Positions 2,538 through 61,170 of a DNA stretch of 64,000 bases are shown piece after piece (positions within the stretch are counted from its first letter, which is position 1; each line of letters begins with the position of its first letter). The position numbers and the translations under genes are program-made. A model generated the notes under the pieces. The model saw nothing but the letters and a program-made list of their open reading frames with translations, had not been told where the DNA came from and ran no database searches. The stretch is from Acidobacteriota bacterium. Lineage in GTDB: Bacteria; Acidobacteriota; Terriglobia; UBA7540. The stretch spans positions 1 through 64,000 of the forward strand of contig JAKCCV010000001.1 of assembly GCA_021838785.1 (NCBI GenBank). The letters are read 5' to 3'.

Positions 2538-2827
2538 GAGCAGTGGCGTGAGCGCTCATTCTATCTCTCCGAGGTCGAGAATAGAAGCACCCTTTGGCTG
2601 GGAACTCGCTCTCAAGGCGCACCCGCTGCTCGGTTGTCTGGCTCCATCGTTTGGCGGACTACGCCCAGGCCAACCGCGAGCGGGTAGCGCTGAGGTGCGC
2701 GTTTTTTGCGCTCCTCAGCGGCTCTTCCGGTATTCAACCGCCGCCCGGCTCCGCCGCAGAGACTCGAGAACTGGTCCTGGGTCACCCTCCGGCAGCGGTT
2801 GGCGAAAGTTTTTGGTATCATGCACCG

Positions 2828-3421
2828 GTGCCTCTATCGTGGAATGAAATTCGGCATCGTGCCATCGCCTTCTCCAAGGAATGGACAGGCGTCCGAAGCG
2901 AACGAGCCGAAAAGCAGACCTTCTGGAACGAGTTCTTCAAAGTCTTTGGGATTCCCCGGCGGGCCGTGGCGAGCTTTGAGGAGCCGGTCAAGGGAATTTC
3001 GGGCAGATACGGCTACATTGACCTGTTCTGGCCGGGCGTGGCGCTCGTCGAGCACAAGAGCCTCGGGAAAGACCTCGGCAAGGCAGAGTCGCAAGCGTTT
3101 CGCTATATCCAGGATCTCGCGCGCGAAGGGCGGACTGATGAAATTCCCCGCTACGTCATCGTTTCCGACTTTGCCCGCATCGCTCTGCACGATCTCGAGC
3201 CCGAAGACCAGCGCCACCTGCCGCGCTTGGCTGGTTCGCGGACACCCCACCAGGTCCGGGTGAATATTTTTGAGAGGTACGTAAAGTCCGTGGACTTACT
3301 GTCATCCGTGATGATTCCATTGACTCGATGGGCAAAAGACCGCAAACGCATCTTCAAAAACGCTTCGGTGAACGAGTGCGTGAACTGCGGAAGCAGAAGG
3401 GGCTTTCACAGGAGTCGCTAG
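2828..3421 (+). pseudogene. N-terminal remnant of MmeI-like type IIG restriction-modification enzyme
   Basis: From the GTG at 2828 the frame opens with PLSWNEIRHRAIAFSKEW, the typical start of MmeI-like single-chain restriction-methylases. It then shows the PD-(D/E)XK-type nuclease site GYIDLFWPGVALVEHKS (D65, E75, K77 of this frame). Similarity continues through the segment ending HDLEPEDQRHLP, about residue 132 (near base 3225-3240), and then stops. The open frame runs on to 3421 through unrelated sequence and overlaps the controller gene. Intact enzymes of this family are roughly 900-1100 residues with methyltransferase and target-recognition domains, all absent here. The matching C-terminal tail lies at 5649-5882, on the other side of a complete RM cassette. 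Residual nuclease activity of the fragment is unlikely but cannot be excluded. Confidence 0.85.
3278..3303 (+). promoter_or_regulatory. C-box (controller-protein operator)
   Basis: The sequence TAA-AGTC-CGTG-GACT-TAC-TGTC (3282-3303) matches the C-box layout known from controller-regulated RM systems: AGTC and GACT tetrads around a CGTG centre, with a further outer tetrad TGTC. The left outer tetrad (TACG, 3278-3281) is degenerate. The inner arms form the inverted repeat AAGTCC-GT-GGACTT (3284-3297). It ends 24 bases before the ATG of the controller gene at 3328, the expected place for autoregulation of the C-R transcript. Confidence 0.75.
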
Positions 3422-3552: not shown

Positions 3553-4468
3553 TACGCGGGAGGCCCTGGCTTCGGCATCACTCCACCTGCAAGGCTTGGC
3601 AGGGCATGTTTTCGATGTTTTGACAATCTCGAAACCGATTTCGCGGGGCGCCGCCGTAAATCTCGCAAAGGTGGTTTCCAAGCTTTCGCCGCTGCTTGGA
3701 AACCTGATTGAGTTCAACACCGTGGAGTTTCTGAACGACCAGCCGGAATATCAGGAGCTGGGCCGGTGGGAACGGCAAGACCCCGGCTTCCCTGACACGA
3801 TTTTTGTAGCGCCGACGATCAGCCCGACACCGGGCTTTGAAATCAAAGCCTGGTTCCCGCTGGCAACGGAAATCACGGCGCGTTTCAAAGGCAGCCAGAA
3901 TCACCTCAAGCACGACCAGACTAACGTTTGCATGTTGGCTTGGCTGCCGGATCAATTGATCTTCGGAAAGCCGAAAATCATCGACGTGTGCGTTGTCCCG
4001 GGGCTCTCGGTTGCGACGGCGCGGGACAACCACTATCACAACCCGCCTGATTACCTCGTGCTGGAGCCGGAGGACACGACGGCGCGGACGCGGAATCTCC
4101 AGCAGACGAACACGAACGGCTACAAGTGGCAGGGGACTCCGCCCCAGTTCAAGAAGGCCCAAAAAATCGTGGAAAGCTGGGGGGCGGACGGGCGAAAGTA
4201 CAAGCCCACAAGACAGTATCAAGGGCTCCTACATCAGCTTATCGAGAGGTTCCCCTATCGTCTGGATACCAACTTTGCAAAGATGGACCGCATTGTCCAC
4301 AGGGGAATCGAGGATTTCAAGCAGCGCGTGCTCGGCACGACGTTTCGCGGGCAGACTATCGCGCAGTGGGGCCGGTTGCTGTTCCAAGGCTCTGATGAGG
4401 CTATCCGTCAAGCGCTGGCAGAGCGTTTCGACATCCGGGAAGAAGATGTTGGCGAGATTCTTGAATGA
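3545..4468 (+). CDS. Putative type II restriction endonuclease
   Basis: This 307-residue protein is translated directly after the C protein with an 8-base overlap. A PD-(D/E)XK nuclease site is visible: GFPDTIF (D84) and, 15 residues on, GFEIKAW (E99, K101). I do not recognise the subfamily or target sequence. The call rests on the active-site pattern, the controller gene in front and the convergent DNA methyltransferase. The C-terminal part ([14 protein letters not shown]..., [14 protein letters not shown]) has no motif I can name. The last 68 bases overlap the 3' end of the methyltransferase gene on the opposite strand, so the two mRNAs are complementary at their ends. A methylation-dependent nuclease is a less likely alternative. 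Confidence 0.8.
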
Positions 4469-5573
4469 GGCGTTTGACCCCGTAGTGAAAGTAGGTGGGA
4501 TCGATCTCTGCGCCGAATGCCCGGCGTCCGCTGTTGCGAGCAGCAACGCAGGCAGTAAATAAGCCGCCGAAGGGCTCCCACACCACATCGCCCTCGTCCG
4601 ACGAAGCGGTGATTATCACTGTGATGAGATCGAGGGGCTTCTGATTCAGGTGGATTGCCCTGCCACTGTCGCCGTTGACCTTAAAGCGCTCTCGGCCTTG
4701 GAGGGCGTTGCGATCCCAAACGTTGGTGAAGCCATGTGGGCAATTGAATTTGGAACGCATGCCCGCCCACTGGTCGGCAGTGCCGGGCTGCCCTCCAACT
4801 ATCGAGAAGTAAGGCCGTCCGGCAGGGTCGCCGTTCTTGTTGGCGTACTCCTGCATCTTGACGAACATTTCCGGTGGTGGGAAGTACCACAAATGGCCTT
4901 GGTCTAAATATTTACGCGCGGCAGCGTCGGCAACGCCACAGGCTTCATTGGCCTCGCGAAGAGGTAGTCCGCTGCGCTTCCACTCACGAAGAAGCCATGC
5001 CTTCAGCGGAAGTCCATCGACCCGGGCCTCGTACACGTACTGGACGCACATTTCCGAGACAACAGGGAAGCGCCGAATTTTCGCGGTGTTTACGTTGCCC
5101 GCGATATGGCCCTTGCCCTTGTTCCAGATGTTCGCACCGATGTAGCGCCATCCGTGCTTTTCAAGGACCGGGTGGACCGCGGCCCACCCCACTTCCGAGT
5201 TCCAAAACCACAGAGTGGTCGACGGGGTTGCATGTTTCGACCAGGCCGCGATATGCGGCTCGTACCATTGGGGCAAACCGAGGTGGTCCGAGGTGTCGCC
5301 TTCAAAGCCAAGGACGCCGTAACCGCCGTCCGACACGATGACCGTTGGCGTTTGCCATTGCTCATAGTGCTCAAGGCTGTCGCCAAGCTGGACGGATATG
5401 AGCTCGTCCGACCACGCCTTCACATCGGAGATAGCGACCCCTTTAACGGCACGGCCACGGCCAACCGTGCTTGTTGGCGCGTGCCGTCTTTGGGTGGAAT
5501 TGCTAGGATGAGCGCCCATTCTCGTTTTGGTTCGCTGCTGCGGCGTTCGTCGTATTCCCTCATTCACCCACAT
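4401..5573 (-). CDS. Site-specific DNA methyltransferase of the first RM cassette
   Basis: This is an amino-methyltransferase (N6-adenine or N4-cytosine, N6_N4_Mtase fold). Near the N-terminus it has GDSLEHYEQW and the catalytic-loop variant VSDGGYGVLGFEGD in place of the common DPPY/SPPY. Towards the C-terminus WEPFGGLFTACVAARNSGRRAFGAEID supplies the FGG SAM-binding motif and an acidic ribose-binding residue. This catalytic-then-SAM order is the beta class. The frame is open back to 5711, but a promoter (5584-5612) and the MmeI-like tail (5649 onward) argue for a start inside. I chose the ATG at 5573, just after the -10; ATG 5519 is the alternative. The product should protect against the endonuclease at 3545-4468. 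Confidence 0.82.
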   Translation of the reverse strand: MWVNEGIRRTPQQRTKTRMGAHPSNSTQRRHAPTSTVGRGRAVKGVAISDVKAWSDELISVQLGDSLEHYEQWQTPTVIVSDGGYGVLGFEGDTSDHLGLPQWYEPHIAAWSKHATPSTTLWFWNSEVGWAAVHPVLEKHGWRYIGANIWNKGKGHIAGNVNTAKIRRFPVVSEMCVQYVYEARVDGLPLKAWLLREWKRSGLPLREANEACGVADAAARKYLDQGHLWYFPPPEMFVKMQEYANKNGDPAGRPYFSIVGGQPGTADQWAGMRSKFNCPHGFTNVWDRNALQGRERFKVNGDSGRAIHLNQKPLDLITVIITASSDEGDVVWEPFGGLFTACVAARNSGRRAFGAEIDPTYFHYGVKRLIQESRQHLLPGCRNALPALDG

Positions 5574-5583
5574 ACACACAGCC

Positions 5584-5612
5584 ATCATATCGGCGAAATC
5601 GCGCCCAGCCAA
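5584..5612 (-). promoter_or_regulatory. Promoter of the RM methyltransferase gene
   Basis: On the minus strand TTGGCT (5607-5612) and TATGAT (5584-5589) are separated by exactly 17 bases, a good sigma-70-type pair. Transcription would start near 5577, only a few bases before the ATG at 5573, so the mRNA may be leaderless or nearly so. The promoter is independent of the C-box, as expected if methylation must come first. Confidence 0.55.
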
Positions 5613-5992: not shown

Positions 5993-6021
5993 TTGCCAAG
6001 GCGGGCGGGCGCGGTTACAAT
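5993..6021 (+). promoter_or_regulatory. secA promoter
   Basis: TTGCCA (5993-5998) and TACAAT (6016-6021) are spaced by 17 bases. The predicted transcription start (about 6028) coincides with the tandem ATGATG at 6026-6031, and no Shine-Dalgarno site precedes it, so the secA message is probably leaderless. Confidence 0.6.
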
Positions 6022-6025
6022 AGGG

Positions 6026-9250
<3,225 letters not shown>

Positions 9251-9431: not shown

Positions 9432-10970
9432 CTATTGTCCGCTATCGCCTGGTGAAAGCACCACATACATGCCTTCGCCCTGATGGATGACGCGGAGCAG
9501 GGTCTCGCCGGTCGCCTGTGCGGCCAAACGATTAAAGTCTTGCACGTTGTGGATGGGTTGCCGATTGATGCTGACGATGACATCGCCCGGGCTGAGCGCT
9601 CCGGACATGCCCGCCGGGCTAGCCGGATCTAAGTTGGTAATCACCACGCCCGTAGCATTATCGGGCAACCCCAGTTGCTGGCGGATATCGGGAGTGAGGT
9701 TCTGCACGGTGACCCCGCGCAGCGTGCCTTGGGAGGGGGGCTTACTGACGCCCGCAACAACGTTTAGATGCGAAGGTCGTTCGCCGAGCGTCACCCTGAT
9801 GGTCATCGGTTTTCCGTCCCGAAGGATGCCGAGCGTTACGACCTGACCTGGATTGAGAGTGGTAATGGCTTGGGTCAAGTCACCGCTTCCCTGCACCGGG
9901 TTGCCATTGAGCGAGCGGATGATATCGCCGTTCTTGACGCCTGCCTTGGCCGCCGGGCCATTCGGCTCGACGTCTTCAACGAGGGCGCCCTTGGTGTCGG
10001 CGGGTGCGCCAAAAGCCTTGGCATATCGGGGCGACATATCGCGGATTTCGACGCCGAGGTAACCCCGCTCCACTTTGCCGGTCTTAATGAGATCGGTCAT
10101 TACATGCTTAGCAACGTTAATTGGAATGGCAAATCCAATACCAATAAAGCTACCCTCTCCGCCCGGGCCGGCATTACCGCTCACAATGGCCGTGTTAATG
10201 CCCACCACTTGGCCTTGCACGTTGACCAAGGCACCACCCGAGTTGCCGGGGTTAATCGGGGCGTCCGTCTGAATAAAGTTCACTACATTCTGCGGCCCTT
10301 CGATGGCAACCCCGGAGCGTCCCAGCGCGCTCACGATGCCGCTCGTCATGGTGTAATCCAATCCAAAAGGATTGCCAAAGGCCATGACCTGGTCGCCCAC
10401 GTGAAGCTTGCTGGAATCGCCGAGCGGCGCCGTAGGCAGGTCCGTGGCATCAATCTTCAAGAGCGCCAAATCCGTATCGGGGTCCCGGCCGATAACTTTG
10501 GCCTTGAACTTTCGCTTGTCGTGAAGCTCCACCACAATCGAGGAGGCATTCCTAACCACGTGATTGTTGGTGAGAATGTAGCCTTGAGGGGAAACAATCA
10601 CTCCGCTGCCGAGGGCGTGTTCCACTTCCCTCTGAGGGACTTGGAACTGAGGGAACATGTTGCCGAAGAATTGGCGGAAGAACGGATCGCCGAAAAAGGG
10701 TGATTGGCGGACGTTCAGTACTTGGGTGGATTGAATGGAAACAATGGCCGGCGTAATGGTTTGGGCAATGCGTTCATAGGCTTTGTTCAAGTTTTCAAGC
10801 GCGTCAATGTCCGGACCATCGAGTCCCTGGCCATTGGCAAAGGCGAAATTCACAAAGCCCCGATGATTGAGATAGAGAATACCGCTCAAGGTCAAGCAGA
10901 GAACGCCGACCAAGGTCAAACTCAAACCGAGCAGGTTCTCCCGCAAAAATTGCTTGGTAATGGGCCGCAT
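9432..10970 (-). CDS. HtrA/DegP-type periplasmic serine protease with two PDZ domains
   Basis: This is an S1C-family protease/chaperone for misfolded envelope proteins, 512 residues long. A membrane anchor or uncleaved signal lies at about residues 14-37. The trypsin-like domain has the full triad: His137 in TNNHVV, Asp in DTDLALLKI, Ser244 in NPGNSGGAL. Two PDZ domains follow (starting near GYLGVEIRDMSP and LRGVTVQNLTP). The ATG at 10970 is chosen because AGGAG sits 8 bases upstream (GAAAGGAGCAAGTT-ATG). The open frame extends further up to 11228, but that part is Arg/Ser-rich and not protein-like for this family. It converges on secA across a strong hairpin. Confidence 0.95.
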   Translation of the reverse strand: MRPITKQFLRENLLGLSLTLVGVLCLTLSGILYLNHRGFVNFAFANGQGLDGPDIDALENLNKAYERIAQTITPAIVSIQSTQVLNVRQSPFFGDPFFRQFFGNMFPQFQVPQREVEHALGSGVIVSPQGYILTNNHVVRNASSIVVELHDKRKFKAKVIGRDPDTDLALLKIDATDLPTAPLGDSSKLHVGDQVMAFGNPFGLDYTMTSGIVSALGRSGVAIEGPQNVVNFIQTDAPINPGNSGGALVNVQGQVVGINTAIVSGNAGPGGEGSFIGIGFAIPINVAKHVMTDLIKTGKVERGYLGVEIRDMSPRYAKAFGAPADTKGALVEDVEPNGPAAKAGVKNGDIIRSLNGNPVQGSGDLTQAITTLNPGQVVTLGILRDGKPMTIRVTLGERPSHLNVVAGVSKPPSQGTLRGVTVQNLTPDIRQQLGLPDNATGVVITNLDPASPAGMSGALSPGDVIVSINRQPIHNVQDFNRLAAQATGETLLRVIHQGEGMYVVLSPGDSGQ

Positions 10971-11307: not shown

Positions 11308-13197
11308 CTACATCTTCTTACGCGAGTAAGCCGTTATGAGCGTCTGGCCGAGCGTTCCGCCGACGCGGCTCAGTTGGATGTCATAATGGATGGGATAACC
11401 TCCCTGGTCCACCACGTTATTGGCTTGCACGGAACCAATAAAGTACCCACTGCTTCCGCCGCCACCCAGCGTGACCGTGGCATTGGGAGCGTTGAGCACC
11501 GCCGTGACAGCTCCGTTGCCGCCAATGCTGACGCCATTTGTTCCCGCGTAGTTAATCGTTAACCAAGCTGGTGGAATGGCGGCGCCAATTCCATTCGTGA
11601 TGCCATTGCCGGTGATGCTGAGAGAACTCTGGATGTTCAGGACCACGTAACCGGAGATGGCAATGGTGGCGTTTCCGCTCTCGCTCAAACTGCCAATGTC
11701 ATAATAGACCGGGTTCTGCGCGCTGCTGCTGCCGACTAAGTCAAGGAAGGTGGATGAATTTCCGCTCAACGTTAGAGAGGAAATATCGTAGGGGTTGGAG
11801 GCGGAGCCATTGCAGGTCCCGCCGGAGACGCAAGGCTGGTTGGCGGAACCGATCGTGTTGCTGCCCCCCGAGCCGGGCGGCGCAAACGATGCCCCTACCG
11901 GCAGGATCACCGCGGATCCGGATACGGAATAAGAAGGCGCCGTGGACAAATTGGAGGGGAACGTGGGGGTGGGCGGAGGATTCACGTGCGGGCCGTTGAC
12001 GACCTGCCCGTTAATCGAGCTGGTACTGCCCGTGTAACCGCAGGCCGGATTGGAAGACGGGGTGCAGCAGGATGAGCCACCCGTGGGATTGTTGCCAATG
12101 GTGACGTTGCCGGCCACCGTCGGATTGCTGCTAATAGCTACGTAACCATTCGCGCCCACGCCCGCCCCTGAGCCAATAACGTTTGTGCTGCTGGAGTCGC
12201 AGGCGCCCGACGCCACGGAGGGGTTTCCACCCCCATACGGGCCGAGCGCGGAATTAAAGGCATCCGTGCACGTGCCGGAGCTTCCTTGCATGGTCACGGA
12301 GCAAAAACCGTACAATGCGTTGCCCCAGGTGGGAACAAAGATGGGCTGGATAATCGCCTGTTCCTCGGCAGTGGCCAACGTCTCCCCGCTCCCGCCGGTC
12401 CAGTGAGCCAGGGCGGTGAGTTTCCAGGTCTCCACGGGTTCTTGAGTGTAGGGAGGGCAGATTTGCGCCGGTGGACACACGTTGACGGTTTGGTAGTTGA
12501 GTAAATAGGCGTTCACGGAGAAGTCGCCGAGCGTGTTGCCGTTCGCATCGGTTATTGTCGTGTTGACCAAATCGTTGGCAAAGGCGGTGCTCACGGGAAT
12601 GGGGCTTGGCTCCGTGTTGTCAATGTCGGGAAAATTCGACGATCCCGTACCCGGGATGCCAATCAATTGCACGGGGCTATTCGTCGAGGGGCAACCGCCG
12701 CCCACGCACCAGACCGCCGAATTGTTGGAGGTGTAGAGGTTCAAAGGCGCGCCGCTGGAGGTGAGCGCGTAAAAGAACGACGGGGGTTCGGGCACACTTG
12801 AGTAAAGTTGCGGCTGTTCAACGGGTTGATAGTGATTGCTCCGAAACCAATTGGCGGCTTTCTGAATGCCAGCCTTCGCCAGATAGTCCGCTTCCGTATC
12901 CAACTGATAGTTGTAACTGGCAAAGGTTTCAGCACGTGCGGTCAGGACAATGGTCGCCGCAAGCACGGTGAGGATGAGCATGGCCAGTAAAACGAGGATA
13001 AGAGCAACCCCGCGGTCGCTCCGGGCCGCCGCTCCGCCCGCGCCCCTTGGATGTGAAAGCCGGCCTGCCTCCGCTCCCAGCAGGCCGCCGCGTCGAGGCC
13101 TGGGGTCACGGCCGCGCAGCTCTCGATGAGACGTGAGCCACGCTAACCGCCCCCGGTTCGATGTTGCTTCGTCCATGCACTGCCTCTTTGAGCTCAT
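11308..13197 (-). CDS. PilX-like minor pilin with large beta-rich C-terminal region
   Basis: A 629-residue type IV pilus assembly protein. After an Arg/Gly-rich leader, the prepilin-like site RSDRG^VALILVLLAM (about residues 60-75) begins the hydrophobic helix, in the style of PilX, which lacks the Glu5 of major pilins. The rest is unusually large: Gly/Ser/Asn/Thr-rich repeats with Cys pairs (CCTPSSNPACG). It ends in NAPNATVTLGGGGSSGYFIGS and a YPIHYDIQL segment, resembling the beta-helix domain (DUF7305-like) found on exported PilX-N proteins. It would be processed by prepilin peptidase and located at the pilus tip or base. AGGAGG lies 8 bases before the ATG and overlaps the TGA of the preceding gene (13210-13212), so it is the last gene of a tight operon. 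Confidence 0.8.
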   Translation of the reverse strand: MSSKRQCMDEATSNRGRLAWLTSHRELRGRDPRPRRGGLLGAEAGRLSHPRGAGGAAARSDRGVALILVLLAMLILTVLAATIVLTARAETFASYNYQLDTEADYLAKAGIQKAANWFRSNHYQPVEQPQLYSSVPEPPSFFYALTSSGAPLNLYTSNNSAVWCVGGGCPSTNSPVQLIGIPGTGSSNFPDIDNTEPSPIPVSTAFANDLVNTTITDANGNTLGDFSVNAYLLNYQTVNVCPPAQICPPYTQEPVETWKLTALAHWTGGSGETLATAEEQAIIQPIFVPTWGNALYGFCSVTMQGSSGTCTDAFNSALGPYGGGNPSVASGACDSSSTNVIGSGAGVGANGYVAISSNPTVAGNVTIGNNPTGGSSCCTPSSNPACGYTGSTSSINGQVVNGPHVNPPPTPTFPSNLSTAPSYSVSGSAVILPVGASFAPPGSGGSNTIGSANQPCVSGGTCNGSASNPYDISSLTLSGNSSTFLDLVGSSSAQNPVYYDIGSLSESGNATIAISGYVVLNIQSSLSITGNGITNGIGAAIPPAWLTINYAGTNGVSIGGNGAVTAVLNAPNATVTLGGGGSSGYFIGSVQANNVVDQGGYPIHYDIQLSRVGGTLGQTLITAYSRKKM

Positions 13198-14950: not shown

Positions 14951-15565
14951 CTATTTTCCGTTCCACGCTGCACTCACGGGATTCCATAACCATGTTGAGA
15001 CTGCTCCTCCTACGGCAACCGTCACCGCCTCGACCATTTGAGCGGAGTTGGTGATATAAACCACATATCCGCCGTTGCTGGCAGGGCCTCCGGTGTTGTT
15101 CACCGGCGCGCCTCGGGTATTGAAGTAGATGTACAGCGGGTCGGGACAAGGATTCGGGTCAGCCTGAATTTCGCCCGGGTAAGATGTCACCGAGGTCGGT
15201 CGGCAGCTTGCAAAGCTATCGCCTTGGGAAATGTACTGCATGCCCCCGACGATCCGAGGCGTCGAGTATGAGTTGTAGGGCGAAGTGCAAGCGGGGTCAA
15301 CGGTGGCCGGAGTGTTTCCGCAAAGTTGCTCCTCCCAATAAAATCCCCCCGCGACGTCAATTCCCACGCGGTAAGGCGCAAATTGTGAAGCAGCCTGCAT
15401 TCGCGCGACGTTGAGCGTACTGGCCAGCGAGATGGAATCCTCGTTGAGTCGGTAATCCTTGATGGCGTTGAGGGCCTGCGGAAGCGCAATAGCGGCAACA
15501 ATAGCAAAAATCAGAATCACCACCAACATTTCCAGCATTGTAAAACCGGAACAGTGTTTCCTCAC
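14951..15565 (-). CDS. FimT/GspH-type minor pseudopilin
   Basis: The first gene of the minor-pilin operon, about 204 residues from the GTG at 15565, which has GGAGG 8-9 bases upstream. The prepilin motif CSG^FTMLEMLVVILIFAIVAAIAL starts at residue 5. It is followed by QALNAIKDYRLNEDSISLASTLNVARMQA, the family pattern of GspH/FimT (helix then LxxxLxxARxxA). It is thought to be one of the minor pilins capping the growing pilus. An upstream frame extension to 15712 is Arg-rich and lacks a plausible start signal. Confidence 0.8.
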   Translation of the reverse strand: MRKHCSGFTMLEMLVVILIFAIVAAIALPQALNAIKDYRLNEDSISLASTLNVARMQAASQFAPYRVGIDVAGGFYWEEQLCGNTPATVDPACTSPYNSYSTPRIVGGMQYISQGDSFASCRPTSVTSYPGEIQADPNPCPDPLYIYFNTRGAPVNNTGGPASNGGYVVYITNSAQMVEAVTVAVGGAVSTWLWNPVSAAWNGK

Positions 15566-32582: not shown

Positions 32583-33761
32583 TCAAGCCGGTGGGGGTGG
32601 GTACAATCGGTCTTTCCAACGGACCCCCGTGCCGGCCAGCGTGAGAACTGCCGAAGTAACCGCAGCAGCGGAGTAAAACAAGGTCGCCAGCGGGAGCGCC
32701 AGAGCCCAAAGCGGCGAAAGACCTAGAAAGGTGACCAGCGGCGCATAAACCACCAAACTGACGGCAGCCGTGGCAGTAGCCAGCAGGAAGGGCGGGTCGT
32801 GCCGCAGTGGCGTTCCGTGCTTGAAGGCGCTCAGCAACAAAACGAGCGAGGCGGCCCAGGGCAAAACCGCAGCGCCCAGGCCAATGACGAGGCCGACCAA
32901 GGTGTTGCGGAGCGAAAAGCCCGTTCCCTCAAACGCCGTACGGGCCAAAGCCTCGAACATCTCCCGCCAGTCATCATACATGCGGGTGTGAAACAAGTCC
33001 TTGCCCACAGCCAGGTAAATCGTCCGCCCATTGCGCTTGAACATCTGGGCCATGCGAAGATCTTCGATCAGGGTTCCGCGCAACCGTTCATAGCCGCCCA
33101 AGGCGCGCAAATCTTCTCTCCGCATCAGGAGAAACGCGCCCACGCCCAGGGCACAGCGGGACTTGGGATGATTGACCAGGCGCAGCGGATACGCTAGAGC
33201 CAGCAAGAACGAAAAAATCGGAAGCACCGCACGTTCCGCCAAACAACCGTAGTCAAACTGTGGGGTAATGGAGACCAACCGGGCACCCGTCTGGGCTGCC
33301 AACGAAACGGCGACGCGAAGCAAGGCGGGGTGGGCAATGACATCCGCATCGGTGGCTAGCAGCCATTCGCCCGTGGCGGCTTTTTCCGCGAGACTGAGGG
33401 CATACACTTTGCCCCGCCAGCCGGGGGGTAATTCGTGATTGTGGATAACCCGCAGGCGACCTTGCACCTCCGGTCGGCGAGCATAGGCATCGGCGATGGC
33501 GGGGGTTCCGTCGGCGGAATCGTCGTCCACCAGGATGATCTCATAGTCTGGATAGTCCAAATTCAGCAGCGAACTCAGCGTGGCGCCGAGCGTCTTTTCC
33601 TCGTTACGTGCCGCCACCAGAATCGAAACTCGAGGGGCCGGCTGCGGCATGGGCAAGGACGTTGCCGGTCGGAGCACATTGAGGCCGCGCGCATTCCAGT
33701 AAAGAAACGCACCCGCTGTCAACCAGCCCAGCAACGCCAGCAGTAGAATCAGTTGAAGCAT
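32583..33761 (-). CDS. Membrane GT2 glycosyltransferase, HpnB-like
   Basis: A 392-residue family 2 glycosyltransferase similar to hopene-associated HpnB proteins. An N-terminal membrane helix (ILLLALLGWLTAGAFLYW) precedes the GT-A domain: RVSILVAARNEEKTL, IILVDDDSADGT, then LLATDADV (the DXD-type metal site) and GTLIEDLRMAQMF. The C-terminal third has several membrane helices (LVGLVIGLGAAVLPWAASLVLLL and following). It probably transfers a sugar to a lipid on the cytoplasmic face; donor and acceptor are unknown, and other hopanoid genes are not seen. The start is ATG 33761; the frame continues to 34427 only as antisense of marR. Divergent from marR. Confidence 0.82.
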   Translation of the reverse strand: MLQLILLLALLGWLTAGAFLYWNARGLNVLRPATSLPMPQPAPRVSILVAARNEEKTLGATLSSLLNLDYPDYEIILVDDDSADGTPAIADAYARRPEVQGRLRVIHNHELPPGWRGKVYALSLAEKAATGEWLLATDADVIAHPALLRVAVSLAAQTGARLVSITPQFDYGCLAERAVLPIFSFLLALAYPLRLVNHPKSRCALGVGAFLLMRREDLRALGGYERLRGTLIEDLRMAQMFKRNGRTIYLAVGKDLFHTRMYDDWREMFEALARTAFEGTGFSLRNTLVGLVIGLGAAVLPWAASLVLLLSAFKHGTPLRHDPPFLLATATAAVSLVVYAPLVTFLGLSPLWALALPLATLFYSAAAVTSAVLTLAGTGVRWKDRLYPPPPA

Positions 33762-33855: not shown

Positions 33856-33886
33856 TTGCAAACAAAGAATCGTGTTGTGATATAAT
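33856..33886 (+). promoter_or_regulatory. marR-clc promoter with extended -10
   Basis: TTGCAA (33856-33861) and a perfect TATAAT (33881-33886) are 19 bases apart. A TG one base before the hexamer makes an extended -10, which can compensate for the long spacer. The predicted start of transcription falls at the ATG at 33894, so the mRNA should be leaderless. Confidence 0.6.
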
Positions 33887-33893
33887 GTTGGCC

Positions 33894-34325
33894 ATGGCCC
33901 CGAAACCCATTCAACGCGAGCGAACCGAGACCCTGGCGGCCTCTCTCCAACGTTTGGCGCTGTTTCGTTATGAAATGCGCCGCTTCCTGCGTTTCAGCGA
34001 GCAGGCGGCCCGCGCCAACGGCCTGACGCCGCAACAGCACCAACTGCTGCTCGGAGTCGCCGGATTCACCGGCCGCGGCTGGGCGACGATTTCCGAACTG
34101 GCAGAATTTCTGCAGGAGCGCCACAACGCCGTGGTGGGTTTGGTGCAACGGGCCGCGCGGCAGGATTTGGTCCAAAAGAAGAACAGCCTGGATGACCGCC
34201 GAGTGATGGAAGTTCGCCTGACGGTGCGCGGCCGCCGCCTGCTGAGAAAGCTCACGGAGATGCACCTCGACCACTTGCGCCGACAACGCGCGCCGTGGAA
34301 CCTGCGGCAAATTATCTTCCGATGA
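33894..34325 (+). CDS. MarR-family transcriptional regulator
   Basis: A 143-residue winged-helix regulator. Recognisable parts are FRYEMRRFLRFSEQAARANGLTPQQHQLLLGVAGF (dimerisation helix and start of the wing domain), TISELAEFLQERHNAVVGLVQRA (recognition helix) and the wing LVQKKNSLDDRRVMEVRLTVRGRRLL, with the conserved DxRR. Members usually repress neighbouring genes and respond to small phenolic or oxidative ligands. The ATG at 33894 is used because the ATG at 33885 lies within the -10 box. Only four bases separate it from the ClC gene, so it likely controls that gene. Confidence 0.9.
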   Translation: MAPKPIQRERTETLAASLQRLALFRYEMRRFLRFSEQAARANGLTPQQHQLLLGVAGFTGRGWATISELAEFLQERHNAVVGLVQRAARQDLVQKKNSLDDRRVMEVRLTVRGRRLLRKLTEMHLDHLRRQRAPWNLRQIIFR

Positions 34326-34329
34326 CGTT

Positions 34330-36135
34330 ATGAGCGCCGAAACAACCAACGCGCGCAAGCTCAAGATTTTTAATGTGTCCGGCTTGCGAAAATATCGGAA
34401 CTTCCTCGAAAAGGGCCTGGCGGCCAACTATTCTCGTGACCTTTACAAGTGGCTGCTGATTTCGCCGGTGATTGGCGTTTTGGTGGGACTGGTGGTGACC
34501 GGCATCACGGTGGTCATCCTGGGGCAATTGTGGCCGCGCCTGCTGCGCTATGTTTTGGCGCACCATTGGGCAATTGTGCCGGTGCTATTGGTGGGCTTTG
34601 TGCTGGCGGGCCTCATCATGCAATTCTTCACGCCCAATCCCAACGAGCACTCCACCGAAGAGATTGTGGACTCTTATCACGAATATCAGGGCGACATTCA
34701 AATGCGGCCGTTTTTCCCGAAGCTACTGGCCGCCATCGCCACGGTCGGCTTTGGGGGCAGCGCGGCTTTGGAAGGGCCGAGCATCTACGCCGGTGGAGCG
34801 ATCGGTTCCTGGTGCTGGGCCAAGTTGCGTCGCCTCGGAATCGAACCCCGCGACCGCCGTATCATGCTCATCAGCGGTGCCGCCGCAGGCATGGGGGCAG
34901 TTTTTCGCGCTCCTCTGACGGGGCTGGTGTTTGCCATCGAAATGCCTTACAAGGACGATCTCGCTCATGAAGCCGTCCTGCCGTCGCTCATCTCCTCGGT
35001 GGTGGCTTATGCCACGCTGGCGGCCTTTGTCGGATCGGGGACGCTGTTCAACTTTGCGAGCCACGCCTCTTATACCCGCAAAGACCTGCTTTGGTCGGCA
35101 TTGCTGGGGTTGCTGTGCGGACTGGTGGCGATGGTCTTTGTGCTGATTTATCGCCGCGCGCGCGCCCTGGCCATCCGCGCCCGCATCCCTCACTGGAGCA
35201 AACTGGCCATCGGAGGCTTATTGACCGGGCTGTGTGGCCTCGCCTTCGTCTCCCTCTATCATGGTTCATTAATCCCGCTCGGCCCAAACTACGAAGCAGT
35301 TGGAGAAATTCTCTATCACCAGCACTCGAGCGGCGAACTGGTGACCTTTGCCGTGTCAAAGATGGCCGCGACCCTGTTTTCCCTCGGCTCGGGCGGCGTC
35401 AGCGCCATGTTCGTTCCGTTGTTCCTAACCGGAGGATCGTTGGGCGTGGCGTTTGCTCAGTCGCTCGCCCACAGCCCCGCCATTGAGCTTTACGCGGCCG
35501 TCGGTATGGCGGCTTTTCTTTCGGCGGGCTACAAAGCTCCCTTAACCGCCGTGGTCTTTGTGGCTGAGGCCACCGGAGGTCACGCTTTTATCATTCCAGC
35601 GCTGATCGGCGCGGCTGTGGCCTACGCCGTGTCAGGAGAGGCTTCCGCTTCCGAAGCGCAGCGCGTTCACGAAAGCGTGAAGGTTCAGGAATTGACGAAT
35701 GTTTTGGTGAGTGAGGTTATGGAGCGACACCCCATCACGGTCCCGGCTTCAATGACGTTGCGGGAATTTGCCGACCGCATGGTGCCCCAACATCCTCACA
35801 GCACCTTTCCGGTCTATCAGAACCGCGAGCTGGTGGGCATCATCTCGGTGTGGTCGTTGAGCGAACAGCCGCCGGAGAAATGGGATCAAACTCTGATCCG
35901 TGAGGTGATTGACCCGGACGTCATCAAAATCGGGCCGGACTGCGACCTCATGGAAGCGCTGCGATTGCTGACCGCCCAGAAGCACCGCCAGCTTCTCCTG
36001 GTCGTGTCACCCACCGGAGAGCTGCAAGGGATTGTCACCAAAAGCGACATCCTCCGCGCCCTGCGCGCGGCCCGCGATAATGCCGTAGGCCACAAGCCCT
36101 CCCCGGAACCCGCACCAGCCAACGCCCCCCAGTAA
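34330..36135 (+). CDS. ClC-family chloride channel/transporter with CBS domains
   Basis: A 601-residue membrane protein. The ClC core has about ten or more hydrophobic helices with the anion-pathway motifs SAALEGPSIYAGGAIGSW (GxEGP-like, carrying the gating Glu), LVFAIEMPYK and GSGGVSAMFVPLFLTGGSLG, followed by KAPLTAVVFVAEATGG. The C-terminus has two CBS modules (VSEVMERHPITVPASMTL... and LIREVIDPDVIKIGPDCDLM...) that often bind adenosine nucleotides and regulate transport. Whether it is a channel or a Cl-/H+ antiporter cannot be told. It shares a transcript with the upstream MarR gene (4-base gap). Confidence 0.93.
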   Translation: MSAETTNARKLKIFNVSGLRKYRNFLEKGLAANYSRDLYKWLLISPVIGVLVGLVVTGITVVILGQLWPRLLRYVLAHHWAIVPVLLVGFVLAGLIMQFFTPNPNEHSTEEIVDSYHEYQGDIQMRPFFPKLLAAIATVGFGGSAALEGPSIYAGGAIGSWCWAKLRRLGIEPRDRRIMLISGAAAGMGAVFRAPLTGLVFAIEMPYKDDLAHEAVLPSLISSVVAYATLAAFVGSGTLFNFASHASYTRKDLLWSALLGLLCGLVAMVFVLIYRRARALAIRARIPHWSKLAIGGLLTGLCGLAFVSLYHGSLIPLGPNYEAVGEILYHQHSSGELVTFAVSKMAATLFSLGSGGVSAMFVPLFLTGGSLGVAFAQSLAHSPAIELYAAVGMAAFLSAGYKAPLTAVVFVAEATGGHAFIIPALIGAAVAYAVSGEASASEAQRVHESVKVQELTNVLVSEVMERHPITVPASMTLREFADRMVPQHPHSTFPVYQNRELVGIISVWSLSEQPPEKWDQTLIREVIDPDVIKIGPDCDLMEALRLLTAQKHRQLLLVVSPTGELQGIVTKSDILRALRAARDNAVGHKPSPEPAPANAPQ

Positions 36136-42707: not shown

Positions 42708-42795
42708 CGGTCGGTTCCTCCATCCCGTTGACGTGCCATCTAATCCTAACCGCCGCCCGACGTCAACTAAAATCAGAAAGCGTTACAATGGCGTC

Positions 42796-43314
42796 ATGCT
42801 GACGCTCGAAAACGCAACGGTCAAGGATGTTCCGCTCATTCTTCAACTGATCCGCGAACTGGCCGAATACGAAAAAGCGGCCGATCAGGCGGTGGCCCAA
42901 GAGGAAGACCTCCGTCGCGACGGTTTTTCTGACCCGCCCAAATTTCGGGTTATCATCGCGCGCTGGAGTGGCAAACCGGCCGGCTTTGCTCTTTATTTGT
43001 ATCACTACTCCACCTGGCTGGGCCGCCCCACCCTGTATTTGGAGGATTTGTTCGTGCGGCCGCAGTTTCGCCGGCTCGGCATTGGCCGCAGCATGTTGAT
43101 CCATTTGGCCAAAATCGCACTGGCCGAGGGTTGTGGCCGTTTTGAATGGCAGGTGCTCGATTGGAACCGTTCGGCGATTGATTTCTACCAATCGCTCGGC
43201 GCCACCGTGATGAAAGAATGGCTAACACTACGCCTGACGGGCCAAGCGCTCCTGGCGTTGGCTGGCGAGCCGGACCATCCGGCGACCGACGGCAACCCTG
43301 GCCATGCCGGATAA
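42796..43314 (+). CDS. GNAT-family N-acetyltransferase
   Basis: A 172-residue acetyltransferase. LENATVKDVPLILQLIRELAEYEK opens the fold. LYLEDLFVRPQFRRLGIGRSMLIHLAKIA is motif A with the acetyl-CoA pyrophosphate loop (RxLGIG), and WQVLDWNRSAIDFYQSLGA is motif B. This combination resembles diamine/thialysine (SSAT-like) acetyltransferases. The ATG at 42796 is preferred over in-frame extensions to 42733. TACAAT at 42784-42789 ends six bases before it, suggesting a leaderless message. No operon partner. Confidence 0.9.
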   Translation: MLTLENATVKDVPLILQLIRELAEYEKAADQAVAQEEDLRRDGFSDPPKFRVIIARWSGKPAGFALYLYHYSTWLGRPTLYLEDLFVRPQFRRLGIGRSMLIHLAKIALAEGCGRFEWQVLDWNRSAIDFYQSLGATVMKEWLTLRLTGQALLALAGEPDHPATDGNPGHAG

Positions 43315-54208: not shown

Positions 54209-55438
54209 TTAATTGCCGAGCATGGGTGGTTGGGCGGTGGCGGGGGCACACTCGACGGCGCTTTGGTTGGCCTCGACTCTTCGCAAGGCCCAAAGAGCGT
54301 GCTCTTGCACGAGCGCGTCAGGATAATGCAGCAACCGCCTGAGCCAAGGTACAAACCGGGTGTCGCCGCTGTTTCCAACCGCAATGCAGAGATTGCGAAG
54401 CCAGCCGCGATATTTGGCGCGCTTAATCGGAGAATTCCTAAACGCCGTTTGGAAATCCTCGGCGGTTAGCGCCGTAAGGTTCTCGAGCGAAGGGTTGAAA
54501 AGAGAAAAAGAGTCTCCGAAGCCATTCAAGCCTTGGCCTGCAGGGTGAGGAATCGTTAAACGAAGCGGCTGAAATTCGGGGATTTCGGTGGTTGCCGGAT
54601 GTTGATGGGTCAGTCGCGTCTCTCCTTGACGTGGGCTCGTTGAGTTCCAGGGGCACACATCCTGGCAGATATCGCACCCAAACACGTTCCGTCCCACCGC
54701 CGGCCTCAGCTTTTCAGGGATGGCCCCCTTGAGTTCTATCGTGAGGTAGGCGATGCAGCGTGAAGCGTCCATCACGTAAGGCTGGACCAGGGCTCCTGTG
54801 GGACACGCATCCAAGCAGCGAGTGCAGGAGCCGCAACGGTCCGGAGCGGGCCCATCCGGCGCCAGCTCAAGACTGGTCAGCACCACCCCGAGGAAAAACC
54901 ATGAACCCTTCTGCTGATTGATAATCAATGTGTTCTTGCCCATCCATCCAATACCCGAAGAGCGAGCCAAGGCTCTCTCGTTGACCGGCCCCGTATCCAC
55001 GTAAACACGGGTTTCAGCGCCGGGAGCGAGCGCCACGAGCGCCTCCCGCAGCCGCTCCAGGCGCTCACGCATCACCGAGTGATAATCGCGGCCCCAAGCG
55101 TAGCGAGAAATCCAGGCCCGCAGGCCGTCCGATGGATGCGGAGGTTGCCCGGCTTCCCTTCCCTGCGTTCCAGCCGTCTCCTTGCCGACGCACTCTGTCG
55201 AATAAGGCAAGGAGGTGTTATAGACCAGCCCAACCAAGATGGCGGACCTTGCCGATGGAAGAACAAGCCGCGGGTCCTCTCGCTTCGGGTTGCGGAGATA
55301 ATGCATTTCCCCGCCAAAGCCCTTCTGGAGCCAGCGCCGCGCAAATTCGGGACCCTCGGCCACCGGAAGCGAAGTAATGCCCACCAGGTCAAAACCACAT
55401 TCAATAGCGCGGCGCTTGATAAGGTCGCCCGGGATCAC
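54209..55438 (-). CDS. queG: Epoxyqueuosine reductase
   Basis: The cobalamin-dependent enzyme of the last step of queuosine synthesis on tRNA, about 409 residues from the GTG at 55438. IKRRAIECGFDLVGIT begins the family fold. Two [4Fe-4S] clusters are visible: CGSCTRCLDACPTGAL (Cys202, 205, 208, 212) and, with Cys228, FGCDICQDVCPWN (Cys255, 258, 262). A C-terminal HEAT-like stretch (WLRRLLHYPDALVQEHALWALRRVE) is typical. The frame opens at ATG 55525, but a TATCAT -10-like hexamer ends 6 bases before the GTG, so the shorter, leaderless start is favoured. Confidence 0.92.
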   Translation of the reverse strand: MIPGDLIKRRAIECGFDLVGITSLPVAEGPEFARRWLQKGFGGEMHYLRNPKREDPRLVLPSARSAILVGLVYNTSLPYSTECVGKETAGTQGREAGQPPHPSDGLRAWISRYAWGRDYHSVMRERLERLREALVALAPGAETRVYVDTGPVNERALARSSGIGWMGKNTLIINQQKGSWFFLGVVLTSLELAPDGPAPDRCGSCTRCLDACPTGALVQPYVMDASRCIAYLTIELKGAIPEKLRPAVGRNVFGCDICQDVCPWNSTSPRQGETRLTHQHPATTEIPEFQPLRLTIPHPAGQGLNGFGDSFSLFNPSLENLTALTAEDFQTAFRNSPIKRAKYRGWLRNLCIAVGNSGDTRFVPWLRRLLHYPDALVQEHALWALRRVEANQSAVECAPATAQPPMLGN

Positions 55439-55561
55439 CGTTCCATGATAACGCAATGCGGGCCGCTGAAGGGCCGTCGGCTCGGCTTTGGACGAGGCGC
55501 CGTCGCACGGCAGTAGCACGCACAAAAAACAAGATAGGCCGCAGCTCAGGCTGAACAGAAG

Positions 55562-58897: not shown

Positions 58898-61156
58898 TTA
58901 GAGGGCGCCGACCGGCCGCGGCTCTTCCGTTCGAATTTCGGTTAACTCTGCAATCAAGTTCGCGGCCCAGCGATAGACATTGTGTTCGGCGACCACGCGG
59001 CGCATCGCTTGCATGCGAAGGGTTTCTTCTTCCGGCGTCATTTCCAAGGCGGCGCGAATCGCCTCCGCTAATTGCTCCGTGTCATACGGATTGACGATCA
59101 GGGCGTCGCGCAGTTCATACGCGGCGCCCGCGAACCGGCTCAGAATCAGAACGCCGCGCTCATCCTCGCGCGCCGCCACGAACTCCTTGGCCACAAGATT
59201 CATCCCGTCATGGAGCGCCGTGACCATGCAGAGGTTGGCGGCGCGGTAATACCGTGCCAGTTGCGCGTGCGAGTGGAGGGTCTGAAGGTAAACGATCGGC
59301 TTCCAGTGCGGCGTGGCAAATCGGGCGTTCACGCGGTCCGCTTCCGCTTTGACTTCGGCCAGCAGGTCGCGGTAGCGCTGGATGGTGGAGCGGCTGGGCG
59401 CGCCCACTTGGAGGAAGGTGAAGCGGCCCTGATAGTCCGGATATTTCTCAAGGAATCGCTCAACGGCGCGGAACCGTTCCGGAATGCCCTTGGTGTAATC
59501 CACGCGATCCACTCCCACACCCATCAGGACCGCATCCACTCCGTGCTCCTTAAGGAGGGCCACACGGTCCACGGGGGGCGGTTTCGTTCCCTCCGGCGGA
59601 GCGAGTTCGGCGGGATTCACGCTAATGGGAAAGCGGCGGACGTGCGTCCGATGGCCGCGACGATTCACCACGAAGCGATCCCAGTCAATGCGGGATTCGA
59701 GCGCTTGATCCACCGTCTCCAGGAAATGGTTGCAATGGGCCTGGATGTGAAAACCGATCAGGTCAGCACCCAGCAAGCCATCGAGCAACTCGCGTTGCCA
59801 GGGGCAGATGCCGAAGGCTTGGGGGTTCGGCCAAGGAATGTGCCAAAAGATGGCGACGCGGGCTTCGGGACGCTCCGTCTTAATCAGGCGGGGAAGCAAA
59901 GCAAAGTGATAGTCCTGCACCAAAACGACCGGTTCCTCCGTCCCCTCCATTTCTTCAAGGGCGGCCTCCGCGAATTTGCGGTTGACTGTCTGGTAGGCTT
60001 CCCAATCGGAAGCGCGAAAGATCGGTCGCATGTGGGCGATGTGGCACAACGGCCAAAGACCTTCGTTCGAGAAACCGTAATAATAGCCGGTCTCCTCTTC
60101 GGGGCTGAGAAAGACGCGCCGCAAGGTGTAATGAGGGTTGTCGGGTGGAACACGAAGGCGGTCGCCCGGCCCGACGGTCTCACGGTCGGCGTCGCCGGCT
60201 CCGTGGGCAATCCAAGTGCCCTCGCAAGCCAGCAAGACGGGCTCAAGCGCCGTGACCAAACCGCTCGCCGGCACGACCACCTGCACGCTTCGGCCATTCT
60301 TGATGTGAACATATGGCTCACGGTTGGAAACCACGAAGAGCGGCCTTTCCTGGAGCTTGCCTTTGACGTGGACGCGCAAGCGCTCAGGCGTCCATAAGGA
60401 TTCTGCCGATTCTCGCAGTTGCGCTTCCTTTTCCGCGGCGGCCCGCGCCGCCGCCAGCATGGCCGTCATGTGGCGAACTTCTTCGGCCAGCGGCTTGAAG
60501 AGATCGTCGTCAGGAAGCGGCGGCGCGGCGTGGGAACTACCGCGCCGCCATTGGCGCATCCACTGGGCCATGCGGGTGATGTTGCCGGTCAGCGCCCAAC
60601 GAATGACGAGGATCGTAATGAGGACGATAAAGAAAATCTCAACCACCAGCGTCCAGAAGGTTGTCCGCCAGATGCGCGCGATTTCTGCGTCAATGTAGCT
60701 GGCATCATAAAACATGCCCACCGCCCCGGTCACGGAAGGGCCACGATGCAAGGGCAAGGCGTAGAGGTAGAGCAGCGTGGGACCGACGTCAATGAATCGG
60801 CCGCGTCCGCCATTTTCGGAAATCGCGCGCGTCACAACGGAGGGAAGAAGTTTGAGAGCGCCGACAAGGCTCGGCGTGGCCGCCAGCTCCGTACCGAGGT
60901 CGTTATAAACGGCGATGCCGTAGAGGCTGTCGCGATTCTCCACCTGGCTCAAATAGTTGGCGAGGGCCGTCGGGTCGGGCGAACTCAGCAGCGCCTCGAC
61001 GTGGTCCTGTAGCGTCTCGCCGAGTGCCTGGGCACGGCCTTCCAATTCGTTCCGCAAAGCGCGCTTTTCAGCCTTCGCCTGGAAGAAGGCGAAAATCAGA
61101 GTGACCGTGACGGTCACCGCGACAAGCGCCAGAATCCATCGGAGCGCAACCCGCAT
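58898..61156 (-). CDS. otsA: Membrane-anchored sensor-fused trehalose-6-phosphate synthase
   Basis: A GT20 synthase (UDP- or NDP-glucose + glucose-6-phosphate to trehalose-6-phosphate) at residues about 271-745, preceded by an uncommon membrane module. TM1 spans residues 7-24, an extracytoplasmic domain of about 140 residues follows (with [21 protein letters not shown] and [12 protein letters not shown], as in Cache/CHASE-like sensors), TM2 is at 167-188, and a HAMP-like/coiled linker lies at 189-255. The catalytic part has [58 protein letters not shown] and [14 protein letters not shown]. Typical OtsA is about 470 residues. The TATAAT at 61165-61170 lies 8 bases before the ATG, so the message is likely leaderless. 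Confidence 0.93.
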
Positions 61157-61164
61157 CGTGCTTC

Positions 61165-61170
61165 ATTATA
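61165..61170 (-). promoter_or_regulatory. -10 element of the trehalose operon promoter
   Basis: A perfect TATAAT on the minus strand, with the first codon of otsA beginning 9 bases after its last base. A matching -35 is not evident at 16-19 bases, so an activator may be needed. Confidence 0.5.

Follow-up and report, generated by a model that had tools for sequence, protein, structure and literature searches.

In lambda cI and Tn1721 tetR, autorepressors are translated from leaderless mRNAs, with an operator lying over the gene's own promoter and the start codon at the 5′ end of the transcript. The marR gene considered here, from a member of the Acidobacteriota, differs from them in that its product belongs to the MarR family and in that the arrangement is held across a bacterial family, autorepression being in this case proposed from sequence.

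Leaderless genes of the TA-led type form a well-established class in bacteria (PMC3160421, PMC9581028, PMC10783764). In the parts of their work cited here, Zheng et al. (2011) predicted leaderless genes in 3/3 Acidobacteria genomes, with an average of 13.3% and a range of 9.7–19.4, and computed a rate of switching between Shine-Dalgarno (SD) and TA signals in Actinobacteria and Streptococcaceae (PMC3160421). Six genes of the window (the whole stretch of DNA analysed, 64,000 nucleotides) are like their TA-led genes in having a TANNNT-type -10 box about 12 bp upstream and no SD site, and in being mixed with SD-led genes (PMC3160421). According to the GeneMarkS-2 classes, 21.6% of bacterial species are predicted to use leaderless transcription, and genomes of the leaderless class, like the present one, hold leaderless and leadered genes together; Acidobacteria are unmentioned in the portion of that account used here, while the present genome is acidobacterial (PMC9581028).

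Materials and Methods

The window corresponds to positions 1–64000 of contig C38 in an assembly of 3.42 Mb (38 contigs, 98% complete, 59% GC in the stretches analysed). In a quick SecA tree, the genome fell within Acidobacteriota, its own family lying in a clade that contains Acidobacteriaceae, Solibacteraceae and Acidiferrales. The genome-wide sample consisted of 988 genes from 80 stretches (L082–L121 and L152–L191; 1.53 Mb), all outside the window. The gene caller under-calls: it returned 1028 genes in 1.53 Mb and, in the window, missed marR and the MmeI-like gene. Expected hexamer counts were taken from spacings 13–50, so that they are spacing controls, not shuffles.

Orthologs were searched for in 26 genomes (G000–G025) with both strands read. 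The secA search covered 41 genomes and was scored on 22 loci (L122–L143, own genome plus family), the class-level loci L144–L151 being left out of the scoring. The criterion was a one-mismatch -10 box ending 5–10 bases before an in-frame start, and windows of six bases from 12 to 53 were used as decoys. The own-genome rows (L122, L192, L222, L250, L280) are not independent evidence, because the window genes were chosen for having the motif. Two places are repeated (L278 = L269 in queG, L246 = L243 in otsA); L192/L193, L280/L281, L310/L337 and L382/L391/L386 are close copies, and L388/L392 overlap. Binomial values overstate conservation because the orthologs are related.

Loci with no aligned N-terminus (secA 5/22, otsA 2/26, GNAT 1/20) or no usable start (one each for marR, htrA and the methyltransferase) were left out, and so were the lower-ranked matches of marR (L214–L221), otsA (L247, L248), queG (L271–L277, L279), GNAT (L299–L301, L303–L309), htrA (L331–L336, L338, L339) and the methyltransferase (L343–L359). 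The open reading frames starting at 13197 and 14307 were taken as PilX and PilW.

Results

Motifs and Shine-Dalgarno sites at the seven starts

A preliminary description of the window had listed seven genes with a -10 box 6–10 bases before the start codon and no SD site. All seven motifs and spacings are exact in the sequence, and the seven upstream regions contain no GGAGG-type site. Of the genes it had named as having strong SD sites, HtrA (10970), Gfo/Idh (43413) and the frames starting at 13197 and 14307 do carry sites of GGAGG/AGGAG type. Family scans of six genes agreed with the identities given (MarR, MmeI N-terminus, otsA-type, GNAT, methyltransferase, QueG).

The same kind of motif occurs at position 15542 (minus strand), where TACAAT-N7-ATG lies inside a reading frame whose in-frame FTMLEM we take to be a prepilin-like N-terminus. 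Therefore, the motif alone is no proof of a leaderless start. Compared across orthologs, six of the seven starts held as leaderless-type (marR, GNAT, queG, otsA and the MmeI-like gene, with secA at the genus level), while the methyltransferase did not. SD sites were found in 0/21 orthologs of marR, 0/19 of GNAT, 0/17 of secA, 1/22 of queG and 4/24 of otsA. The SD-led gene htrA, taken as a control, had an SD site in 20/21 orthologs and a -10 box at 5–10 bases in 0/21:

9432–10970, minus strand: htrA, SD-led control gene

The marR promoter and its overlapping dyad

33894–34325, plus strand: marR-family gene with a leaderless-type ATG at 33894 (PF12802 MarR_2, 3.2e-08, over the cut-off)
33878–33886, plus strand: TG-extended -10 box of marR, TGATATAAT
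33881–33886, plus strand: -10 box TATAAT of marR, 7 bases before ATG 33894
33869–33881, plus strand: imperfect dyad ATCGTG-T-TGTGAT overlapping the marR promoter, proposed MarR operator (family consensus ATCRCR-N-TGTGAT)
34330–36135, plus strand: CLC-type chloride channel with CBS domains (PF00654, PF00571), 4 bases after marR

A leaderless-type architecture is strongly supported for marR by its family orthologs, 19/21 of which have a -10 box at 5–10 bases (decoys 0, 0, 0, 0, 1, 1 and 2). One of the rows scored as a miss, L199, has too short an upstream flank, and it carries TGATATAAT 6 bases before a GTG. In the 19 promoters with a match, the TGn extension is present in every case and the spacing to the start is always 6–9 bases. 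Aligned on the -10 box, these promoters share ATCRCR-N-TGTGATATAAT, with TC at -11/-10, GTGATA at -4 to +1 and the final T of the -10 box invariant.

The shared dyad is probably a MarR autorepression operator, although a putative one. It is perfect (8+8) in the orthologs L197 and L211 and has 7 of 8 pairs in L202, L206 and L210. The dyad of the window is weak: the best one found there automatically has 4 of 8 pairs, which is at chance level, and is located elsewhere. The pattern ATC[AG][CT][AG]NTGTGAT matches at a single place in the window, and the 1.53 Mb sample contains one further match (L155); a looser operator pattern gave many scattered matches.

The conservation of the marR promoter is confounded by the operator. 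It could be argued that the operator is what has been conserved, that TATAAT is incidental and that the real promoter lies elsewhere, as the invariant TC...GTGATA and a conserved stretch reaching well upstream of the -10 box would allow. For marR, we consider this improbable. The last T of the -10 box lies outside the symmetric core and is kept in 19/19 promoters while its dyad partner is mixed (A9 G5 T4 C1), so that the operator alone does not explain the -10 box. Moreover, TGn-TATAAT is a full extended -10 box, and its distance to the start is confined to the narrow range given above.

marR and its neighbour, the CLC channel gene, are probably co-transcribed. We read marR-CLC as an autorepressed operon in which promoter, operator and translation start would all lie within about 30 bases. 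A CLC match is present in 20/22 marR loci, 11 at 64% identity at least and 9 at about 28–32%; the latter suggest that the type of channel was swapped beside a conserved regulator.

On the other side of marR lies a divergent glycosyltransferase gene (32583–33761, minus strand). Its most probable start is ATG 33761, which has a GAAGGGA site. A longer open frame of this gene runs antisense through marR and misled the automatic gene calls.

GNAT, queG and otsA

42796–43314, plus strand: GNAT acetyltransferase gene (PF00583, 8.5e-20)
42784–42789, plus strand: GNAT -10 box TACAAT, 6 bases before ATG 42796
54209–55438, minus strand: queG, epoxyqueuosine reductase, with a leaderless-type GTG start (PF08331, 7.5e-20)
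55445–55450, minus strand: queG -10 box TATCAT, 6 bases before GTG 55438
58898–61156, minus strand: otsA-type glycosyltransferase family 20 gene (PF00982, 8.4e-120)
61165–61170, minus strand: otsA -10 box TATAAT, 8 bases before ATG 61156

Concerning GNAT, a -10 box at 5–10 bases was found in 14/19 orthologs (decoys 1, 1, 0, 0, 0, 0, 0); 12 of these 14 have a spacing of exactly 6. Without any selection of hexamers, columns -12 to -7 (consensus TACAAT) are the most conserved block of the 32 upstream bases. For queG, the box was present in 13/22 rows, or 12/21 distinct orthologs (decoys 1, 2, 1, 0, 0, 0, 0). These comparisons strongly support a leaderless-type architecture for both genes. The support is moderate for otsA, with 8/24 rows or 8/23 distinct orthologs (decoys 0, 0, 1, 0, 0, 1, 0); the four otsA orthologs with SD sites are other ones. 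In the ortholog promoters of these three genes, -35 boxes were not above shuffles, and the TGn extension occurred in few of them (GNAT 3/14, queG 1/13, otsA 0/8).

Predicted secA transcripts with and without a leader

6029–9250, plus strand: secA; the name given agrees with its matches, the six nearest nearly full-length ones in other genomes being 77–91% identical
5993–5998, plus strand: secA -35 box TTGCCA, 17 bp spacer
6016–6021, plus strand: secA -10 box TACAAT, 4 bases before a first ATG (6026) and 7 before a second one (6029)

The -35/-10 pair is identical in the 3/3 same-genus orthologs found, own genome included, all of which have TTGCCA-N17-TACAAT-N7-ATG. The first ATG (6026) is absent from the two other species of the genus, and ATG 6029 is conserved. 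In other genera, the best promoter lies 31–40 bases upstream of the start in 10/14 orthologs and at 85 in one, and was found in none of the remaining three; several of these promoters have the same TTGCCA/TTGTCA-N17/18-TACAAT. Family-wide, the leaderless-type spacing (3/17) was not above decoys, with a binomial P of 0.17 that ignores kinship. So, the leaderless-type architecture of secA is supported at the genus level, in its own genus, and the simplest reading is that the leader was lost in that genus while the promoter was kept.

It might be thought that the boxes of these genes are not promoters but AT-rich, unstructured stretches: transcription would begin at more distant upstream promoters, and the stretches would assist ribosome binding to the resulting mRNAs, which would have a leader but no SD site. 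AT-rich signals of SD-less genes have been described in other groups (PMC3160421), and the lack of a -35 excess in GNAT, queG and otsA goes in the same direction. Against it stand the specific hexamer and its fixed spacing, best seen in GNAT, the absence of a peak for AT-swapped hexamers (ATNNNA), the TGn extension of every matched marR promoter and the -35 box of secA at 17 bp. On balance, we hold this explanation to be unlikely and prefer the reading of the boxes as promoter elements.

The MmeI-like remnant and the methyltransferase gene

2828–3421, plus strand: MmeI N-terminal remnant, 197 aa (PF20464)
2816–2821, plus strand: MmeI-like -10 box TATCAT, 6 bases before GTG 2828
4401–5588, minus strand: N6/N4 DNA methyltransferase gene (PF01555)
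5589–5584, minus strand: TATGAT in the methyltransferase gene, 10 bases before ATG 5573

MmeI-like restriction genes move between genomes. TATNAT ends 6 bases before the start in 9/9 rows with a complete start, representing 6 distinct flanks, which strongly supports a leaderless-type architecture of this gene. The remnant is 99% identical over 132 aa, with an identical 60-base upstream region, to the start of an MmeI-like match at G000:C38:125340 (L391), which falls within an open frame of 993 aa, at a distance of about 122 kb along this contig. The remnant is accordingly described here as a recent duplication, its predicted promoter included.

The methyltransferase was rejected as a leaderless example. 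TATGATG itself holds two in-frame ATGs (5588 and 5585), and ortholog L341 (84% identical, the sole one with a comparable start region) keeps both of them and not ATG 5573. It seems more likely that the gene starts at ATG 5588 or 5585, within TATGATG.

Frequency of -10 boxes close to starts

The four hexamers of the preliminary description ended 6–10 bases before the called start in 16/988 genes against 4.6 expected (Poisson P 2.7e-5). With a wider set (all one-mismatch TA...T hexamers), 23 genes were found against 8.6 expected; when any plausible start was allowed, the counts were 28 against 15.8 for the four hexamers and 45 against 28.4 for the wider set. In the sample outside the window, neither the reverse-complement nor the AT-swapped control hexamers gave a peak at spacings 5–9, and the loose TANNNT pattern alone was without excess at those spacings (40 against 37.2 expected). 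In a small sample of a sister genus (G012, 194 genes), there was no -10 excess (1 against 0.9 expected).

A strong SD site precedes 233/988 starts, compared to about 57 at control positions. The spacing peak is therefore genuine yet small. Taken together, these counts bear out the earlier statement that the organism uses both initiation modes, while the statement that leaderless starts are frequent was overstated genome-wide.

Before allowing for missed cases, the excess at 6–10 bases amounts to 1.2–1.7% of the 988 genes. Because the gene caller under-calls, we roughly corrected this, without a formal computation, to an estimated 2–5% of genes, guided by the recall of the automated rule given below, which misses marR and the MmeI-like gene in the window. 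Either figure is far under the 9.7–19.4% predicted for Acidobacteria in the cited parts of Zheng et al., a comparison between different methods in which the present one uses strict hexamers and imperfect start calls (PMC3160421). Under one automated rule, the window had 4/37 genes (secA, GNAT, queG, otsA) compared to 28/988 elsewhere (Fisher P 0.025), so that it is richer in leaderless-type starts than the genome.

That the boxes are chance matches, picked while scanning many starts for loose hexamers, is very improbable: some 1.6% of genes (15.8 of 988) do match randomly at some candidate start, and the look-alike in the prepilin-like frame and the failed methyltransferase case also speak for it, but the conservation of marR, GNAT, queG and the MmeI-like gene and the ortholog comparisons in general largely refute it for six of the seven genes.

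Other observations were made on the same sample. Further candidates with a -10 box at 6–10 bases were found, for instance at L168:16850–17551, L105:17174–17800 and L085:5893–9381; a Crp-type regulator, an ECF-like sigma factor and the DNA polymerase III alpha subunit are among the products of the genome-wide candidates. The -10 hexamers were also raised 20–38 bases before starts (L082–L121, L152–L191), which fits many short-leader promoters. Counting ATGs 3′ of TATAAT without gene calls was rejected as too noisy to decide. In the assembly, some stretches of which may be missing, no 16S rRNA gene was found with RF00177 despite the 98% completeness, and hence no direct view of the anti-SD tail was obtained. 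A 13-base anti-SD tail pattern gave two matches and was dropped, neither locus being rRNA by Rfam.

Discussion

We consider it highly probable that marR, GNAT, queG, otsA, secA and the MmeI-like gene have sigma-70-type -10 boxes producing mRNAs with little or no leader. RNA polymerase would start on the initiation codon or a few bases from it, as set by the position of the -10 box, and the ribosome would recognise the initiation codon at the 5′ end, with no SD site involved. Among the other genes of the genome in which a signal can be recognised, the majority use SD sites. Both the transcript 5′ ends at start codons and the mode of ribosome recruitment are inferred from the DNA sequence. In marR, the -10 box overlaps the putative dyad to which MarR would probably bind; one element may therefore set the transcription start, the translation start and the autorepression of marR-CLC.

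No transcript mapping of leaderless mRNAs in Acidobacteria appeared among the matches listed from one literature collection. What is new here is the gene-by-gene conservation and the proposed loss of the secA leader; they are additions to a known class and not a new kind of start.

Some practical consequences can be pointed out. Start calls are corrected to the second ATG of secA, to ATG 33894 of marR and, for queG and the MmeI-like gene, to GTG. In a GC-rich genome, in which the motif by itself says little, true leaderless starts can be told apart from look-alikes by comparing orthologs. secA constitutes a natural pair in related genera, the promoter type being shared and the leader present in one member and absent from the other.

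As to the wider meaning, selection may have preserved leaderless starts in individual genes of this acidobacterial family (marR, GNAT, queG, MmeI-like) in spite of their being rare genome-wide, with secA having lost an ancestral leader of 31–40 bases in one genus and kept its promoter. Leaderlessness would then have been selected in certain genes and would not be the outcome of genome-wide drift, a proposal for which we see the balance as even. If it is true, natural pairs of leadered and leaderless orthologs would be available for testing leaderlessness as a selected, gene-specific trait.
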